The notes under the pieces are model-generated. The model did no database searches, had not been told where the DNA came from, and saw only the letters and a list, made by a program, of their open reading frames with translations. Below, piece after piece: positions 8,199 to 20,546 of a stretch of 20,546 nt of DNA (position 1 is the stretch's first letter; every line of letters starts with the position of its first letter). This DNA comes from Tannerella sp. GTDB taxonomy: Bacteria; Bacteroidota; Bacteroidia; Bacteroidales; Tannerellaceae. Location of the stretch: contig JAIRXI010000136.1 in NCBI GenBank assembly GCA_031268395.1, positions 1 to 20,546 on the forward strand, read 5' to 3'. Position numbers and translations under genes: made by a program.

Positions 8199-9071
8199 TT
8201 ACCCGATGGTATGGTTCGTAATCAGTTCCTTCATCAATTCGTCGATGGCGTCGTCGCTCGGGGCGAGGGATCTGCTTTCCTTGGTCTGGAAAACCACATT
8301 CTCTATCTTCTTCACTTTCGTGGGAGAACCGGACAAGCCGCACTGCGCGACATCAGCACCGACATCGGCAACACTCCATTCCTGCAGATTCAGGTACGGG
8401 CGACTGTCGTACAGCGACGTACAGGTCGCCGCCGCATCCTGCCGTTCGGTTGTCGTCCGGGCATGTTTGTATTTCTGGACGGATTTTGCGTTACGCGGGC
8501 GGCAGTCCGGAGCGCTTCCGTTCACGGTCACTACCAGCGGGAGACTCGTTTCGACGGTTTCCACTCCCCGTTCCAGCCGGCGTTTGACGGTAATCCTGCC
8601 GTTTTCCACCCGTTGGATCTCTTCGGCATACGTCACCTGATTCAGTCCCAGCTTCTCGGCCACCTGCGGACCTACCTGCGCCGTATCGCCGTCGATAGCC
8701 TGTCGGCCACAGATAATCAGGTCGCAGCCTTTGATTTTGCGGATGGCCATAGCCAGAGCGTAGGAAGTTGCCAGCGTGTCGGCGCCGGCAAAGGCGCGGT
8801 CGGTCAGCAGATAGCCTCCGTCGGCGCCACGGTACAAGCCTTCGCGGATGATTTCGGCCGCGCGTCCGGGGCCCATGGTCAATAGCGTGACCGTTGTGCC
8901 GGGATACGCATCTTTCAGGCGCAACGCCTGTTCGAGCGCGTTCAGATCTTCCGGGTTGAAAATGGCCGGAAGCGCCGCACGGTTGACCGTCCCATCCGCC
9001 TTCATCGCGTCCTTGCTCACGTTTCGTGTGTCCGGCACCTGTTTCGCTAATACAATAATATTTAAACTCAT
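8199..9071 (-). CDS. etfB: Electron transfer flavoprotein beta subunit
   Basis: EtfB pairs with EtfA and binds AMP, or a second FAD in bifurcating ETFs. The 290-residue product starts MSLNIIVLAKQVPDT, contains NPEDLNALEQALRL, and has GRQAIDGDTAQVGP in the nucleotide-binding region. That last signature resembles the EtfB of clostridial butyryl-CoA dehydrogenase/ETF complexes, which carry out flavin-based electron bifurcation. The subunit is somewhat longer than the common 250-265 residues, with an extended C-terminus after the VNGSAPDCRPRN segment. It is the first gene of the etfB-etfA-dehydrogenase unit, with a consensus -7 box at 9112-9119. Whether this ETF bifurcates is inference. Confidence 0.93.
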   Translation of the reverse strand: MSLNIIVLAKQVPDTRNVSKDAMKADGTVNRAALPAIFNPEDLNALEQALRLKDAYPGTTVTLLTMGPGRAAEIIREGLYRGADGGYLLTDRAFAGADTLATSYALAMAIRKIKGCDLIICGRQAIDGDTAQVGPQVAEKLGLNQVTYAEEIQRVENGRITVKRRLERGVETVETSLPLVVTVNGSAPDCRPRNAKSVQKYKHARTTTERQDAAATCTSLYDSRPYLNLQEWSVADVGADVAQCGLSGSPTKVKKIENVVFQTKESRSLAPSDDAIDELMKELITNHTIG

Positions 9072-9111
9072 ATATAGTGATATTAGGAATTATGCATTCA
9101 AAAACTGCGTG

Positions 9112-9119
9112 CAAAAGTA
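9112..9119 (-). promoter_or_regulatory. -7 box of the etfBA promoter
   Basis: Read on the minus strand the sequence is TACTTTTG, an exact TAnnTTTG match, 41 nt before the etfB ATG. No good TTTG is found at the -33 position, so the -33 half is weak. Start of transcription would be near 9105. Confidence 0.6.
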
Positions 9120-9120
9120 A

Positions 9121-9357
9121 TCAAAAATTCCAATAGATTGAACCGCTCCGGGATAAAATCTCTCTGCGGGAACGGCTGCATCCCGGGTCCGGAAGCTTTC
9201 CCGGCATTAGCCTGGCGGTATTGCTCCGGGGATGTATTCCAGCTGCATTACGCTGGCTCCTGACGGAACCAACGGCCTGTTTCTCCGGCGTATGCGGCGG
9301 GACTTCACCGGGACATCCTGTACGCTTCGGGCAAATGAACCTCATTTCCACCTCCTT
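9121..9357. other. GC-rich region of unknown content between the etfB promoter and the repeat element
   Basis: About 240 nt without a recognisable gene. A minus-strand reading frame of 76 codons covers it, but its Arg/Pro/Ser-rich product matches nothing I know and has no supporting signals. It directly adjoins the dispersed repeat and could be part of it; the second copy leaves the window before this part could be compared. Confidence 0.4.
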
Positions 9358-9470
9358 TTAATAACAAAACAACCTCAGTAGCAGCAGGAATGAACCCTCC
9401 GGCAAAACCTCATTATCTTATTCTTTGTAACCGTACGGAATAAGGAGGATTACTTATTCTGAATCATTGC

Positions 9471-9670
9471 GCGTCGACGCCCCGGCGCATCGACACTCGA
9501 CGCCCCGGCGCATCGACACTCGACGCCCCGGCCTTTCGACGTTCGATGCCCCGGCCTTTCGACGCTCGACACCCCGGCCTTTCGACGATCGACACCCTGG
9601 CCTTTCGACACTCGATACCCCGGCCTTTCGACGCTCGATACCCCGGCCTTTCGACGTTCGACACCGGGGA
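9471..9670 (+). repeat. 23-bp tandem repeat array
   Basis: Seven complete units start at 9490, 9513, 9536, 9559, 9582, 9605 and 9628, with partial units at each end. The consensus is TCGACRYTCGAYRCCCCGG followed by CCTT (first two units CGCA). Variation is concentrated at positions 6-7 and 12-13 of the unit, mainly transitions. Since 23 is not a multiple of three, any translated frame would rotate through three frames with a 23-residue period, which argues against a selected protein. Copy B at the right edge has only about one unit. Confidence 0.9.
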
Positions 9671-9775
9671 GAATGGAATGTTCGGTTTCAAATCGCGGTT
9701 AATCTGAATTTTGGACAGGCGAACTTTTTTCGGAACCGACCTGTCATTATCGCATACACCGGAAGGACATGCCCT

Positions 9776-9806
9776 GCCATACGCTGAACGTGTGATGGCT
9801 TTTTTC
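9776..9806 (+). terminator. Terminator-like hairpin at the end of repeat copy A
   Basis: GCCA pairs with TGGC and ACG with CGT around a CTGAA loop, with a small bulge, followed by six T. The equivalent place in copy B has a perfect CATACG/CGTATG stem and five T. Conservation of the fold plus the T tract suggests that the element can end a transcript in its own orientation. Confidence 0.5.
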
Positions 9807-9869
9807 AGGTACAGGGTTTTACGGGTGATCCGTATCCACTCTCCTTTACGTTATCTGTCCTTTATTTCT

Positions 9870-9893
9870 AAAAGAGATAGCATCTCAAAAAAA
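9870..9893 (-). terminator. Weak terminator after apbE
   Basis: GAGAT (9874-9878) pairs with ATCTC (9882-9886) around a 3-nt loop. On the minus strand it is preceded by seven T and followed by TTTT. It lies about 23 nt after the apbE stop. The stem is short and AT-rich, so strength is doubtful. Confidence 0.4.
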
Positions 9894-9915
9894 GAATGAA
9901 CCGAAAAGGCACATG

Positions 9916-10908
9916 TTATTTGAGCAAAATGGCCGACATCCCTTTGGAGCAGTTGACCTGAAACTGCCCGTCCGGAGTGGAATGGATGAAATAATATTCG
10001 ATACCGGACAATCCCTCCATCATCTGCACGGCCTTCTCCAGTCCCATCGCCATGCAGGCCGTGGCATAGGCATCGGCCGTCATGCAGTCGGATGCGACAA
10101 TTGTCGCGCTGAGGATCGACTGCCTGGAAGGATAACCGGTTCGCGGGTCAATGGTATGCGCATACCGCGTCCCATCTTTTTCGTAAAAGTTCCGGTAATT
10201 TCCGGATGTCGCCATTCCGCATTTGTCACACAACTGCACAATTCCGTTCATTTGGGTGTTCGTTCCGTACAGGTCGTCTTCCGGTTTACTGATGCCTATG
10301 CGCCAGCAATGACCGTTGGGATTGAGGCCGTTCACCGCCACTTCGCCGCCGATATCCACGCTGTAATTCGCAACGCCTTCCCGCTCCAGCAGTCCGGCAA
10401 TAACGTCACAGGCAAAGCCTTTTGCTATGGCGGAAAAATTCAGCATCATCCGCGGGTCGTCTTTTACGACATGACTGTTTTCCAGATGGATTTTTCGGTA
10501 GCCGACAAACGTCAGCAGACTGTCGACAACATGCGGCGAAACGCTGTCTTTCCGCTCAAACCCGAACCCCCACAGGTTGATCAGCGGGGCTGTCGTCACG
10601 TCAAACATCCCGTCCGAATGTGCCGATACATTCATTGCCCTGTTGAACACGGTCGCGAACCATTCATCCACCTCCACATCCTCATTGCGGTTGACCTTCG
10701 CCAGTATGGAATTGGGATTGAATGGATTCAGGGAGAGATTAAACGCCTGAAATTCCGCGTCGATTTTGTCTGTCAAGAACTGTTCCGACTGATATTTGAT
10801 GCGATAATAGGTATGAAACACCGTTCCGCTCTCTTCGTAATAGGGCGCCTGCTGTCTACACGATACTCCCAAACAGCATCCAGACAGGAATAAAATCCAT
10901 TTTTTCAT
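9916..10908 (-). CDS. apbE: FAD:protein FMN transferase ApbE, lipoprotein
   Basis: ApbE-family enzymes move FMN from FAD onto a Thr/Ser of target proteins, such as Na+-NQR or Rnf subunits, outside the cytoplasmic membrane. The 330-residue product begins with a lipoprotein signal peptide; LSGC at 8-11 is a good lipobox with C11 as the acylated residue. Family signatures follow: LNPFNPNS, LINLWGFG, NFSAIAKGFACD, YSVDIGGEV, TSGNYRNFYEKDG, HTIDPRTGYP and MTADAYATACMAMG, the last including metal/FAD-site residues. The length is normal. It stands alone: the repeat element lies downstream and a regulatory gap upstream. No target flavoprotein gene is in the window. A consensus -7 box lies at 10933-10940. 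Confidence 0.95.
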   Translation of the reverse strand: MKKWILFLSGCCLGVSCRQQAPYYEESGTVFHTYYRIKYQSEQFLTDKIDAEFQAFNLSLNPFNPNSILAKVNRNEDVEVDEWFATVFNRAMNVSAHSDGMFDVTTAPLINLWGFGFERKDSVSPHVVDSLLTFVGYRKIHLENSHVVKDDPRMMLNFSAIAKGFACDVIAGLLEREGVANYSVDIGGEVAVNGLNPNGHCWRIGISKPEDDLYGTNTQMNGIVQLCDKCGMATSGNYRNFYEKDGTRYAHTIDPRTGYPSRQSILSATIVASDCMTADAYATACMAMGLEKAVQMMEGLSGIEYYFIHSTPDGQFQVNCSKGMSAILLK

Positions 10909-11244: not shown

Positions 11245-13440
11245 TTATCGAATAAATAGCAATTCCCTGTACTTGGGCAGCGTCCACATTTCGTCGTCCA
11301 CAATCAGTTCGAGTTTGTCGGCGTGATAGCGGATGACGTCAAAATACGGCAGCACCGTATCGTGATAGGCCAGTGCCTTTTCGTAGACGCTCTCCATCCG
11401 GTTGGCAACCTTGCGCGCTTCGACCATTGCGTCCGCATTCTCTTTGATGGCAACCACATGTTTTGCGATCTCCTCCACCAGCGAGGCGTCCAAGCCGGAC
11501 AGCTCGGCTGCCTTCCCGGCAGGATAGACGGCTTTAATCTTGTAGAGGTTATCCAGCAGGATAGACTGGTAGCGCGTGGCGACAGGGATGATATGGTTGA
11601 TAGCCAAGTCGCCTACAACACGCGCTTCGATCTGGATTTTCTTCGTATACGTCTCCCACTTGACCTCGTTGCGCGCATGCAGTTCCGTCTCGTTCAGCAC
11701 GCCGGTGGAAGCGAACAGGCGGATACTCTCCGCACTGGTGTATGCGTTGAATATCTTCGGGACGCTCGTCTCGCAGTCCAGGCCACGCCGGGCAGCTTCC
11801 TCCTTCCATTCCTCGCTGTAGTTGTTGCCATCGAAGCGGATGGGTTTCGAGATTTTGATGTATTCCTTTAGGACTTCGAAGATGGCCTTTTCCTTCGTCT
11901 CACCCCGAGCGATGATCCCGTCGACGCTCTGCCTGAATTCAATCAGCTGGGCGGCGACGGCGGCGTTGAGTGCCGTCATGGCCGAGGAGCAGTTGGCCAG
12001 CGACCCGACGGCGCGGAACTCGAACCGGTTGCCTGTGAAGGCGAACGGTGAGGTGCGGTTGCGGTCGGTGTTATCGAGCAGCACTTCGGGGATGTGCGAG
12101 ATGCCGAGGCGAAGCCGCTTCCTGCTGTCGACGACAATGGCCTGCTCGGTTGTGCTGCCCTCCAGCAGGTCAAGAATCTCGGAGACCTGCGTACCGAGGA
12201 AAGCCGAGATGATGGCCGGCGGCGCTTCATTGGCACCGAGCCGGTGGGCGTTGGTGGCCGAACTGATGGAGGCTTTCAGGAGCGCATTGTTCTTGTAAAC
12301 GGCCATCAGGATGTTGACCAGAAAGGTGACAAACTGGAGGTTCTCTTCAGGCGTCTTACCAGGGGTGAGCAGGCCAACGCCCGTGTCGGTGCCGAGCGAC
12401 CAGTTGTTGTGCTTCCCGGAGCCGTTGATGCCGGCAAAGGGTTTCTCGTGCAGCAGGATACGGAAGCCGTGGCGACGGGATACCTTCTTCATGATAGACA
12501 TGATAAGCAGGTTCTGATCGACGGCCAGGTTGGTCTCACTGAAGATGGGCGCCAGTTCGAACTGATTGGGTGCCACTTCGTTGTGACGCGTTTTCAGCGG
12601 GATGCCATACTTGTAGCCCTCGAACTCAAGATCCTTCATAAAAGCCGTTACACGGGTGGGAATGGCGCCGAAGTAGTGATCTTCGAGCTGTTGATTCTTG
12701 GCCGATTCGTGGCCGAGCAATGTCCGTCCGGTCAGCAGGAGGTCGGGGCGCGTGGCATACAGTCCTTCGTCAATCAGGAAATATTCCTGTTCCCAGCCGA
12801 GGTAGGAATAGACCTTGCGTACGTTGGGATCGAAGTAGTGGCAGACGGCCGTGGCGGCACGGTCGACAACGCTGAGCGCCTTCAGCAGCGGCGCCTTGAG
12901 GTCGAGCGCTTCGCCGGTGTAGGAGATGAAGATAGTGGGAATACAGAGCGTGTCATCCATCACGAAGGCGGGCGACGAAGGGTCCCAGGCCGTATATCCG
13001 CGCGCCTCGAACGTGCTGCGGATACCTCCGCTCGGGAAACTTGAGGCGTCGGGTTCCTGCTGTGCCAGCAGCTTGCCCGAAAACTCTTCGATGATGCTCT
13101 CGCCCGGGCCATTGGCATAGTCGATGAACGAGTCGTGCTTCTGCGCCGTGCCGTCGGTCAGGGGTTGGAACCAATGCGTGTAATGGGTGGCGCCCAACTC
13201 CATGGCCCACATCTTCATGCCGGAGGCCACCTCGTCCGCAATCATCCGGTCGAGCGTTTCGCCTTTTTCAACGGCGTTGCGGATAGCCTTCAGCGTCTCT
13301 TTCGAGAGATACCGGGCCATCGTCGAGGAGGTAAACACATATTTCCCGTAGAAGTCGGAAACATACTTGGACGGAGAGATAACCTGAAGCGCTTTCTTCT
13401 TGAACGCTTCTTCTACAGCTTTGAATCTTAATGTACTCAT
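11245..13440 (-). CDS. glnN: Glutamine synthetase type III (GlnN)
   Basis: This enzyme makes glutamine from glutamate, ammonium and ATP in the cytoplasm; the type III form is a dodecamer first known from Bacteroides. The 731-residue length matches the Bacteroides enzyme (about 729) and is far from the ~450 of type I. Signatures seen: RHNEVAPNQFELAPIFSETN upstream of the NGSGKHNNWSLGTDTG block at 339-354, EAPPAIISAFLG, and DRNRTSPFAFTGNRFEFRA, together with a long C-terminal helical region. It is the last gene of the nitrogen block, 35 nt after asnA, with no promoter visible in the gap. A strong terminator follows. Type III enzymes are generally not adenylylated, so control is probably by transcription and metabolites. 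Confidence 0.97.
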   Translation of the reverse strand: MSTLRFKAVEEAFKKKALQVISPSKYVSDFYGKYVFTSSTMARYLSKETLKAIRNAVEKGETLDRMIADEVASGMKMWAMELGATHYTHWFQPLTDGTAQKHDSFIDYANGPGESIIEEFSGKLLAQQEPDASSFPSGGIRSTFEARGYTAWDPSSPAFVMDDTLCIPTIFISYTGEALDLKAPLLKALSVVDRAATAVCHYFDPNVRKVYSYLGWEQEYFLIDEGLYATRPDLLLTGRTLLGHESAKNQQLEDHYFGAIPTRVTAFMKDLEFEGYKYGIPLKTRHNEVAPNQFELAPIFSETNLAVDQNLLIMSIMKKVSRRHGFRILLHEKPFAGINGSGKHNNWSLGTDTGVGLLTPGKTPEENLQFVTFLVNILMAVYKNNALLKASISSATNAHRLGANEAPPAIISAFLGTQVSEILDLLEGSTTEQAIVVDSRKRLRLGISHIPEVLLDNTDRNRTSPFAFTGNRFEFRAVGSLANCSSAMTALNAAVAAQLIEFRQSVDGIIARGETKEKAIFEVLKEYIKISKPIRFDGNNYSEEWKEEAARRGLDCETSVPKIFNAYTSAESIRLFASTGVLNETELHARNEVKWETYTKKIQIEARVVGDLAINHIIPVATRYQSILLDNLYKIKAVYPAGKAAELSGLDASLVEEIAKHVVAIKENADAMVEARKVANRMESVYEKALAYHDTVLPYFDVIRYHADKLELIVDDEMWTLPKYRELLFIR

Positions 13441-19244: not shown

Positions 19245-20054
19245 TCAGATCCGTCCAACCAGTTCCGAGAAGAGCAGCGTCATTGTATCTGCGGCCTTGC
19301 GGGCGACTGCGATCACACCGGCTCCGTCGTTGACAGAACCGTCTGCGAAGCGGTAACCTTCATTTGTGATCACCGACATGCCGAAGACGCGCAGTCCGGC
19401 ATGACGCGCCACGATGACCTCCGGCACCGTACTCATTCCCACGGCGTCGCCCCCCGCCCTGCCGTAAAAGGCGTATTCGGCCGGCGTCTCGAACGACGGG
19501 CCGGTCAGTCCCACATACACGCCCGTTTTCAGGGCGATGCCTCGGGAGGTGGCAATGGCTCCGGCGATACGGATAAACTCGCGGTCGTAGGCGCGTGTCA
19601 TGTCGGGGAAACGTGTCCCGAAGGCGTCGTCGTTCGGGCCGATCAGCGGATTGGGCATCAGGTTGATATGGTCGCGGATCATCATCAGGTCTCCCACGCT
19701 GAAGGCCGGGTTGATGCCGCCGGCAGCGTTCGAGACGAGCAGATTCTTCACGCCAAGGCATTTCATCACCCGCACCGGATACGTCACCTGCCGCATGGTG
19801 TAACCTTCGTAATAATGGAAACGTCCCTGCATGACCCAGACGGATTTCCCGCCCAGTGTGCCACAGATCAGGTTTCCCCTGTGACCGGTCGCCGTCGCAT
19901 GTACAAAATGCGGAATTTCTCCATACGGAATCCCGGTGGCATGCTCCAGACGCCCGGCCAGCGCCCCCAGGCCGCTGCCGAGTATGATGGCCGTTTCCGG
20001 CCGCTCCTCCACGCGGGAAGATAGATATTCAACTGTTTCCTGACAGGCTTTCAT
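19245..20054 (-). CDS. Purine nucleoside phosphorylase (trimeric PNP type)
   Basis: This cytoplasmic enzyme splits purine nucleosides with phosphate to base plus (deoxy)ribose 1-phosphate, for salvage. The 269-residue product has the trimeric PNP signatures: ILGSGLG and GHRGNL for phosphate, [30 protein letters not shown], and [15 protein letters not shown] followed by SVITNEGY. The Asn of VITN is the residue that in trimeric PNPs favours 6-oxopurines (guanosine, inosine). Length is normal. It is a single-gene unit with a consensus -7 box at 20081-20088 and a leader of about 20 nt. Confidence 0.95.
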
Positions 20055-20080
20055 TGCTGATCTGGTGTTTGTTTACCGCG

Positions 20081-20088
20081 CAAAGATA
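20081..20088 (-). promoter_or_regulatory. -7 box of the pnp promoter
   Basis: The minus strand reads TATCTTTG, an exact TAnnTTTG match, 26 nt before the pnp ATG. No clear TTTG is found at -33; that position is instead occupied by the first of two direct repeats. Confidence 0.6.
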
Positions 20089-20099
20089 CACGATTTCCA

Positions 20100-20141
20100 C
20101 CGGATAATTCCGGGGACAAAACAAAAATCCGGATAATTCCG
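20100..20141. promoter_or_regulatory. Two direct copies of CCGGATAATTCCG upstream of pnp
   Basis: Identical 13-mers lie at 20100-20112 and 20129-20141, 29 nt apart (nearly three helical turns). Each contains the inverted arms CGGA/TCCG. They overlap and lie upstream of the -33 region of the pnp promoter, a typical place for transcription-factor sites. Confidence 0.5.
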
Positions 20142-20251
20142 AAGGATCAGGCCTCTTTTTCCGGTAAACCCGGCGGCAGCCGGCAGTAAAAAATCATGCC
20201 GGAACCGATGGAATAAGCCTCGCCGGCTCTCCGGTAAAGCCATGTGTTTAT

Positions 20252-20546
20252 GGGATGAACACGGGTCACCTGTAAACCCTGTGTCTGAAAAAGCCGTCAT
20301 ACGTTCAGCGTATGGCATGGCCCTCCGGTGTACGCGGAACAGCGATTGGGAGCCGAACGTTCCATTCTCCCCGGAGTCGAGCGTCGAAAGGCCGGGGGTG
20401 TCGAACGTCGACGCACAATGATTCAGCACAGATAATCCTCCTTATCCTGTGATGAAAGAGCGGATACGGCTACAGGAAATAAGGTAATGAGGTTTGCCGG
20501 AGGGATCATGCTGCCTGCCTGCTACTGAGGTTGTTTTGTTATTAAA
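20252..20546 (-). repeat. Dispersed repeat element, copy B (inverted, short array, cut by window edge)
   Basis: Read on the minus strand this repeats the block order of copy A: left end with TTTAATAACAAAACAACCTC, CCCTCCGGCAAA, GATAAGGAGGATTA, GCTGAATCATTG, the 23-bp unit sequence, CCGGGGAGAATGGAA, ACACCGGA, CCATACGCTGAACGT and ACAGGGTTT. It has only about one complete 23-bp unit (with one extra C) plus a partial one, and lacks the ~50-nt insertion of copy A. Its left end touches the window edge, so it may continue. It lies upstream of pnp. Confidence 0.8.
20287..20318 (-). terminator. Terminator-like hairpin at the end of repeat copy B
   Basis: On the minus strand CATACG and CGTATG pair around a CTGAA loop, with GCC/GGC extending the stem, followed by five T. 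It is the counterpart of the hairpin at 9776-9806 in copy A. Confidence 0.5.

Follow-up and report, generated by a model that had tools for sequence, protein, structure and literature searches.

Dispersed nested palindromes in a Tannerella genome, with core arms linked to one clade of Y1 transposases

Two intergenic stretches of the window (the whole stretch of Tannerella sp. DNA analysed, 20,546 nt, which is the entire contig C164 of a 3.13-Mb, 82%-complete genome in 425 contigs) resemble each other in inverted orientation, and the question they raise is what kind of element they represent and what could have moved it. A reading made from the sequence alone had described them as an element present twice, with both ends conserved, a variable middle and no transposase. 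The features on which the following account draws are these:

8199-9071, minus strand: ETF-beta-like gene, left neighbour of copy A
9274..9831, plus strand: copy A, the whole element with its left outer arm truncated, bounded by homology to copies in its own genome
9274..9337, plus strand: left outer arm of copy A, of the second arm type and with its outer part missing, placed by the start of homology and the arm sequence
9338..9382, plus strand: left core arm of copy A, AACCTCATTTCCACC...AACAAAACAACCTCAGTAGC, conserved in its own genome, the genus and public contigs, and delimited by the flank boundary
9407..9423, plus strand: left strand of the inner stem of copy A (ACCTCATTATCTTATTC), from sequence and comparison with long relatives
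9438..9452, plus strand: right strand of the inner stem of copy A (GAATAAGGAGGATTA), from sequence
9474..9665, plus strand: 23-nt minisatellite of copy A, 8.3 copies, which replaces the right core arm (Tandem Repeats Finder; repeat family D1)
9751..9831, plus strand: right outer arm of copy A, with GGTTTTACGGGTGATCC as its end and matches on, for example, contigs C57, C20 and C358
9832..9905, plus strand: weaker block outside the outer end of copy A, common to contig C39 (own-genome alignments, L004 and L002)
9916-10908, minus strand: apbE, right neighbour of copy A
19245-20054, minus strand: purine-nucleoside phosphorylase gene, with copy B upstream of it
20263..20546, minus strand: copy B, the portion present on the contig, its left part cut by the contig end (repeats, matches and the C151 overlap)
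20263..20336, minus strand: right outer arm of copy B, with GGTTTACAGGTGACCC as its end (C164:20261-20336 matches query 412-494; sequence)
20373..20411, minus strand: remnant of the 23-nt repeat in copy B (inverted-repeat pairs I6, I12 and I17)
20521..20546, minus strand: part of the left core arm of copy B (sequence; 28-nt identity I4)

The ordered series of conserved blocks on which the two copies were first recognised is borne out: six inverted blocks (pairs I4, I11, I5, I2, I1 and I3), of 26-60 nt and 81-100% complementary, join 9357-9804 on the plus strand to 20288-20546 on the minus strand, the longest being 60 nt at 88% and one of 28 nt reaching 100%. Both copies do lie between genes, A between the ETF-beta-like gene and apbE and B upstream of the purine-nucleoside phosphorylase gene. 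Neighbouring genes apart, the only frames of at least 80 amino acids that overlap the copies are 9467-9787 (plus) and 20073-20429 (minus); neither matches a Pfam family at E <= 1, so that no transposase is recognised in A or B, as the sequence-only reading had it. Searches of the window found no tRNA and, at gathering cut-offs, no Rfam match. The upstream distance from a minus-strand gene start to the beginning of the copy is about 200 nt in both cases (9071 to 9274 for A, 20054 to 20263 for B). Elsewhere in the window, a 731-amino acid frame at 11245-13440 on the minus strand shows a weak resemblance to glutamine synthetase, with NCBIfam matches (TIGR00653, 8.4e-10) that stay far below the cut-off.

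The extent of the copies had to be redrawn. Matches to copy A within its own genome rise from 0 per base at 9260 to 16 at 9280 and 101 at 9340, and stand at 29 at 9820 and 2 at 9840, counts that are inflated by overlap among the own-genome loci; alignment starts cluster at 9274 and 9323 and ends at 9831-9833, and homology to L002, L006, L009, L010 and L024 begins at 9274-9275. Copy A is homologous to the others over 9274 to 9831, with the exact outer end at 9815-9831, and the left edge originally placed at 9358 is an artefact of the truncation of B. Part of the weaker block beyond this end, 9877-9907, is also common to contig C361. At the other end of the window, contig C151 overlaps C164 by exactly 119 nt, and this overlap, together with the position of B at the contig end, indicates that the apparent end of B is an assembly break inside a repeat; conservation of both ends therefore holds for one end of copy B and fails for the other. 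As for the variable middle, A and B do differ there, the middle of A being the tandem array of which B has only a remnant. Other intergenic minisatellites of about 21-24 nt, differing in sequence from that of copy A, were seen by eye beside elements at L069, L068 and L065 in related genomes and at L028 in the window's own genome.

The copies are far more numerous than two. In the window's genome 84 pieces match 9340-9860 (the self match and several pieces per copy being counted). When one mismatch is allowed, the 21-base core block TTTTAATAACAAAACAACCTC is found at 64 places and its reversed control at 0; when two are allowed, the outer end GGATCACCSGTAAAACC is found at 52 and its control at 2. 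Chance duplication, which had been doubted from the start, is ruled out by the 84 pieces and the core counts. A genome-wide copy count had been set beforehand as the check, and it returned many copies with common ends, not just two with fading edges; with dozens of copies in both orientations, A and B are not special as inversion partners. Comparison of the copies shows that a full one, some 340-390 nt in length, is built of palindromes nested in one another, with two types of outer arm, core arms and an inner stem. The core arms start AACCTCATTTCC and are laid out as AACCTYATTTCC..ACAAAACAACCTYAGTAGC, some 20-33 variable nucleotides and then ACCTYATTACCTYATT, inverted on the other side; the inner stem is ACCTCATTACCTTATT, and the outer arms of the compound unit in this genome are GGATCACC..GGTGATCC. 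The copies thus have the features of a MITE, being short, non-coding and numerous, with inverted ends. The copy set used below comprises 87 entries listed after removal of those with identical first 120 nt; some of them overlap (L086 appears three times and L215 twice) and some are poorly bounded (L143, L169, L180).

The surroundings of the copies in this genome are themselves rich in repeats. Other dispersed intergenic repeats are common to the flanks of L011, L015, L017, L021, L022 and L024, including CCCAACATGTCCATTAGACGCTTC.., short runs of CGTTCATCGTTCATCG and a stretch with TTTAATCGCTTTTTCTATGGATATGAATGCCCTGACGGGC, and one repeat of this type breaks up a family copy at L022. At L031, L042, L053, L307 and window 20225-20262 a second partial outer end lies directly outside the first, about 40 nt away, as if copies had inserted near their own ends.

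Beyond the window's genome, a full-element query, with up to 11 first-look candidates scored per genome, matched 12 of 61 genomes, namely 12 of the 37 of the same genus (its own included) and none of the 24 from other genera. Outside the own genome these matches cover almost only the core, with a weaker relative of the outer arm in G021. A pattern scan of public genome contigs for the arms yielded at least 112 stretches; among the 80 titles listed, 24 are from Planctomycetaceae (9 bins) and 56 from Bacteroidota contigs, whose titles include Prevotellaceae, Dysgonamonadaceae, Tannerella, Symbiothrix, Azobacteroides and others, and viral contigs gave 0 matches to the arm pattern. The exact pattern was found in 12 of 16 chosen genomes (18 times in the window's genome, 50 in G065, 29 in G012, 18 in G052 and 11 in G038, for example), and its reversed control in none of the 16. 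It was absent from G178, G004, G030 and G055; G178 has the transposase gene described below, and G004 has family members, without the exact pattern. The repeated motif of the arms is ACCTTA in G038, G052, G127, G152 and G023 and mostly ACCTCA in the other genomes, a difference that occurs jointly across the blocks of an arm, and the ACCT motifs of the core arm lie 11 and 22 nt apart in several copies (L194, L149, L078), with L062 departing from this spacing.

Ten proteins from element-bearing loci of the Planctomycetaceae bin G065 were compared with Pfam families, and two of them carry DUF1559 (PF07596), a domain typical of Planctomycetes. This, together with arms on many G065 contigs, makes it unlikely that all Planctomycetaceae contigs bearing the element are mis-binned. 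That bins of two phyla have this repeat in common suggests that mobile DNA has passed between unrelated bacteria. The element-bearing public bins are, going by their names, presumably for the most part termite-gut assemblies. A paper on 145 termite gut metagenomes (PMC9137090) fits such an origin.

It is the longer relatives that connect the arms to an enzyme. Among the at least 112 loci, six wide-armed copies (L162, L181, L191, L194, L199 and L211) enclose a transposase frame between the inner repeats, shortened in L191, while five other long copies (L120, L146, L160, L178 and L220) hold other DNA in place of the gene; the gene is placed inside the stem equivalent to that at 9407..9423 in copy A. 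The suggestion of a non-autonomous element family is upheld by these longer relatives, with the transposase gene between the same arms, and by the many copies with common ends. In L162 and L194, which come from different bins, gene and arms form one block with 91.5% identity over 683 nt. Three of the proteins (L194, L181 and L066), of 147-152 amino acids, match the Y1 transposase domain PF01797 at E values of 2.6e-17, 9.3e-19 and 4.8e-16, and score 54.6, 54.2 and 44.0 bits, under the cut-off of 55, with the NCBIfam model for IS200/IS605 transposases, NF033573. The HVH and YIENQ of L181 align with the HIH and YIENQ of ISHp608 TnpA. The HUH motif takes the forms EHVH, NHVH, DHVH and EHIH, with a varying first residue, and among five close proteins WQ is found in L194, L181, L309 and L310 and LQ in L308. 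The tyrosine motif Y---Q--HH is present in all 11 genes at 55% identity or more, as YIENQKEHH in L194, L211, L162 and L181, YIENQPEHH in L279 (G003) and YILGQKEHH in L280 (G038); in many distant genes the pattern used for this motif picks up an earlier Y...Q stretch. At E 1e-10, 4241 database proteins match, and the NCBI names in the best 120 of these are Prevotellaceae, Prevotella, Paludibacter, Planctomycetaceae and Bacteroidales. Of 395 sampled genomes of the class, 47 have a match at 1e-25, with a gap in identity between 63-65% and 43% and below. The window's own genome has no Y1 transposase at E 1e-5 and no PF01797 match at 0.01, in an assembly that is 82% complete and in 425 contigs.

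The nearest published group is subclass 1.2 of TnpA_Y1, which Quentin et al. 2018 (PMC6006769), in the sections available, give as proteins of about 148 amino acids with DH[IV]H, WQ and Y---Q--HH, close to IS200 and without hairpins, listed as 'REP: no' and without IS properties. By its sequence, the transposase found here matches this subclass in tyrosine motif, length and phylum: it shares 147-152 amino acids, HVH or HIH, the W-Q pair (4 of 5 close proteins), Y---Q--HH and an occurrence in Bacteroidetes, and the family is likewise predicted to have no classical IS200 terminal hairpins. Unlike the subclass as described in those sections, the gene is enclosed by long inverted arms, of which many dispersed copies exist, and it extends to bins titled Planctomycetaceae. 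Among the matches listed for open-licence literature from 2018 on, 'subclass 1.2' occurs only in Quentin et al., and the repeat is not named in the titles or abstract openings listed from the open-licence literature as a whole.

The arms follow the protein clade closely. Among genes at 55% identity or more, the inner block flanks both sides at 10 of 11, and the GTAG block does so at 10 of 11 as well, with all four blocks present at 9 of the 11; each of these two blocks flanks both sides at 0 of 47 more distant genes, of which two are without one flank, two have a short flank and one has a one-sided GTAG block. Five of the 11 loci were recovered by scanning for the arm and are thus biased, and the G003 locus was also recovered by DNA search; for the genes known from the protein search only (G038, G052, G127, G152 and G178) the counts of two-sided flanking are 5 of 5 for the inner block and 4 of 5 for the GTAG block. 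Several distant Y1 genes are also flanked by long inverted repeats; the linkage is claimed for one protein clade and not for subclass 1.2 overall. At the more distant Y1 genes L311, L312, L313 and L314, which also have Y---Q--HH, the flanks hold other GTAG-containing hairpins with ACCTGT nearby (GCTCCGTAGGAGC..ACCTGT, for example), as if each Y1 clade might have its own repeat.

How such an enzyme would find these ends depends on how they fold. In five long copies, three of them nearly identical, the left or right 88 nt alone show no unusual pairing with DNA parameters (z from -1.4 to +1.7), whereas the joined ends are predicted to pair strongly (z from -12 to -19), and five short copies each form one predicted hairpin (z from -11.5 to -19). 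The left and right ends are thus predicted to pair with each other and not within each end. Strong pairing of short copies, and the position of both A and B some 200 nt upstream of a gene start, are also what a structured regulatory or terminator-like RNA held in place by selection might present. Such an RNA is, however, at odds with the lack of an Rfam match at gathering cut-offs, the near symmetry of the structure on both strands, the unrelated flanks and the genome-specific outer arms, and because transposase-bearing relatives exist we regard it as very improbable.

IS200/IS605 elements such as IS608 and ISDra2 resemble the family in having a Y1 HUH transposase as a single small gene, with no target duplication seen at the core; they differ in having subterminal hairpins (PMC6006769, sections available), where the ends found here have by prediction no hairpin of their own and carry long terminal inverted repeats instead. 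TIRtrons, with their TIRYT proteins, also have a Y1 gene between terminal inverted repeats that are dispersed as families (Di Nocera 2013, PMC3733652, as far as its accessible text goes). In the available sections of PMC6006769, subclass 2.1 accounts for 20 of the 26 TIRYT described, and most of the repeats contain GGGG[AT][CG]A[CG]; that GGGGWSAS repeat and a subclass 2.1 protein with an extra C-terminal domain set them apart from ACCTYATT arms and a protein of 147-152 amino acids.

REP and REPIN sequences with their RAYT enzymes share with the family the GTAG of the arms, inverted doublets and a transposase located elsewhere, and the arms could accordingly be read as REP-like units, their pairs resembling REPINs or BIMEs, of a domesticated RAYT-type enzyme whose gene does not move as a unit. 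Many proteins among the best 120 are named RayT by one source, REPtrons are described in the portion of PMC6006769 at hand as low-copy genes with dispersed repeats, and G038 holds everted pairs and a single listed arm. A REP is however a short self-folding hairpin with GTAG at its foot, and the class 2 enzymes of that portion have Y---NP, while here GTAG occurs in ends for which no folding alone is predicted, the enzyme has Y---Q--HH, and L162 and L194 hold gene and arms as one block in different bins; we consider REP-like units rather unlikely. The everted pairs, with both arms outward, are at C3:204729-204852, C4:25799-25923, C26:181767-181890 and C26:185670-185793 of G038, with facing pairs elsewhere, and because of them it might be one arm alone that can move.

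Just beyond AACC, the flanking sequence is A-rich over some 3 bases and then flat in composition, which places the boundary of the core at AACCTC/GAGGTT; no fixed target motif, such as the tetra- or pentanucleotide 3' of which IS200/IS605 elements insert, is apparent there. A set of 84 copies (the 87 less two from the own genome and another whose flank is short) shows no direct repeat at these ends above shuffled pairs, in a test whose sites are not independent since many core flanks are repeated within genomes. The outer ends behave otherwise: for the five two-ended copies in the window's genome the flanking octamers match at 8/8, 8/8, 6/8, 6/8 and 4/8, as against none at 8/8 and 12 at 6 or more in 737 cross pairs, and the fifth of these copies, L006, has at 4/8 a direct repeat of about 23 nt by eye. 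Target duplication, which it had been proposed to look for, is hence seen at the outer layer in the own genome (exactly 8 bp in 2 of 5) and not above chance at the core ends, and the compound unit probably has a second way of moving, one that duplicates 8 bp.

Core copies in several genomes have further common flanks that differ from genome to genome, such as GTAACTATTCAGT..ACTGAATAGTTAC in G065 as against GGATCACC..GGTGATCC in the window's genome, and since these flanks are repeated and genome-specific, present-day movement may be that of a unit other than the core; at the G065 outer ends (GTAACTATTCAGT) no duplication was seen by eye. The own-genome elements might then be ordinary MITEs, belonging to a DDE-type transposon that has GGATCACC at its ends and duplicates 8 bp, with the Y1-linked core as a passive passenger. 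The exact octamers in two of the five copies and the 6/8 matches in two more speak for this, as do the absence of a detected Y1 transposase from the genome and the 30 outer-arm loci read (40 matches), in all of which the arms are attached to the core or truncated and none of which is a core-free outer palindrome. The core does, however, occur in other genomes with other outer flanks, and the octamers of L006 match at 4/8, though it has the longer direct repeat; we place ordinary MITEs with a passenger core only slightly below an even chance.

Sites without the element were sought with joined flanks of 12 elements from 11 genomes (one right flank being of 24 nt), and no clean empty site is among the matches listed. 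Two of these matches span a junction, both for L171 in G062, at 78% and 76%, and they consist largely of ACTATTA repeats with a poor fit at the junction. The better one is on G062:C510, which aligns with the joined L171 flanks over 161 nt at 79%, mostly in tandem repeats, and has no core motif; the other, on G062:C168, adjoins the core of L144. A local flank search over 107 two-armed places gave 7 rows, of which the L171-L121 rows are mainly ACTATTA tandem repeats. On the reverse strand of G062:C510 (L358), at about 476-629, a core-free palindrome lies between ACTATTA tandem repeats and is related to the outer layer of L171; it could be an ancestor of an occupied site. Palindromic flanks are found at 4 of the 84 copies, where 0.85 would be expected and 4 is the maximum in 200 shuffles. 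That cores insert at the centre of older palindromes would agree with the C510 palindrome but is not established.

Two archaeal repeats of Haloquadratum can be compared by their descriptions in the accessible part of PMC3119063: PATE are transposase-free relatives of IS605 without terminal inverted repeats, and SMR-A are elements of about 110 bp with inverted ends, no duplication and up to 54 copies, which insert into palindromes. The family found here has in common with SMR-A the inverted ends and the missing duplication, and perhaps the preference for palindromes. Nearer in phylogeny is the BrickBuilt MITE of Porphyromonas gingivalis, also from Bacteroidales, which the portion of PMC4596501 available describes as intergenic, with a 23-nt minisatellite of variable repeat number. 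Its ends are of the IS5 type, GAGACCTTTGCA, in contrast to GGATCACC..GGTGATCC and AACCTC..GAGGTT, and no tie to a Y1 transposase is described in that portion.

Taken with the long relatives, copies A and B are likely to be non-autonomous mobile palindromes, in which a small Y1/HUH transposase of the subclass 1.2 type would have the core arms as its DNA partner and the outer layer would be moved by a second transposase. The family would have spread by transposition. In such a scheme the Y1 enzyme would act on single-stranded DNA whose two ends, left and right, have paired as one long stem, would cut at or near the base of that stem, and the hairpin would be carried to a new place, in a single-strand reaction like that of IS200 with the paired ends as the stem that the enzyme recognises. 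Short copies may have arisen from long members by loss of the transposase gene. In the lineage of the window a gene-less core would then have become the centre of a larger unit moved by a second transposase, which the two exact 8-bp duplications suggest for the unit with GGATCACC..GGTGATCC arms, and the branch leading to copy A would have gained the 23-nt minisatellite.

A bolder possibility, to which we give somewhat less than an even chance, is a third Y1 architecture, in which the whole unit is one end-to-end hairpin recognised by subclass 1.2, has spread among Bacteroidota and Planctomycetota of one gut habitat, and is nested in layers one of which is moved by another transposase. Its ends would have no hairpin each and would instead be long terminal inverted repeats with a second stem inside, as the folding predictions suggest. 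The loci offer a candidate DNA substrate with clear ends for the orphan transposase subclass 1.2, on which binding and cutting are directly testable. End-to-end pairing, if true, would differ from the IS608/ISDra2 and REP systems and would raise the question of how a Y1 enzyme finds its ends.
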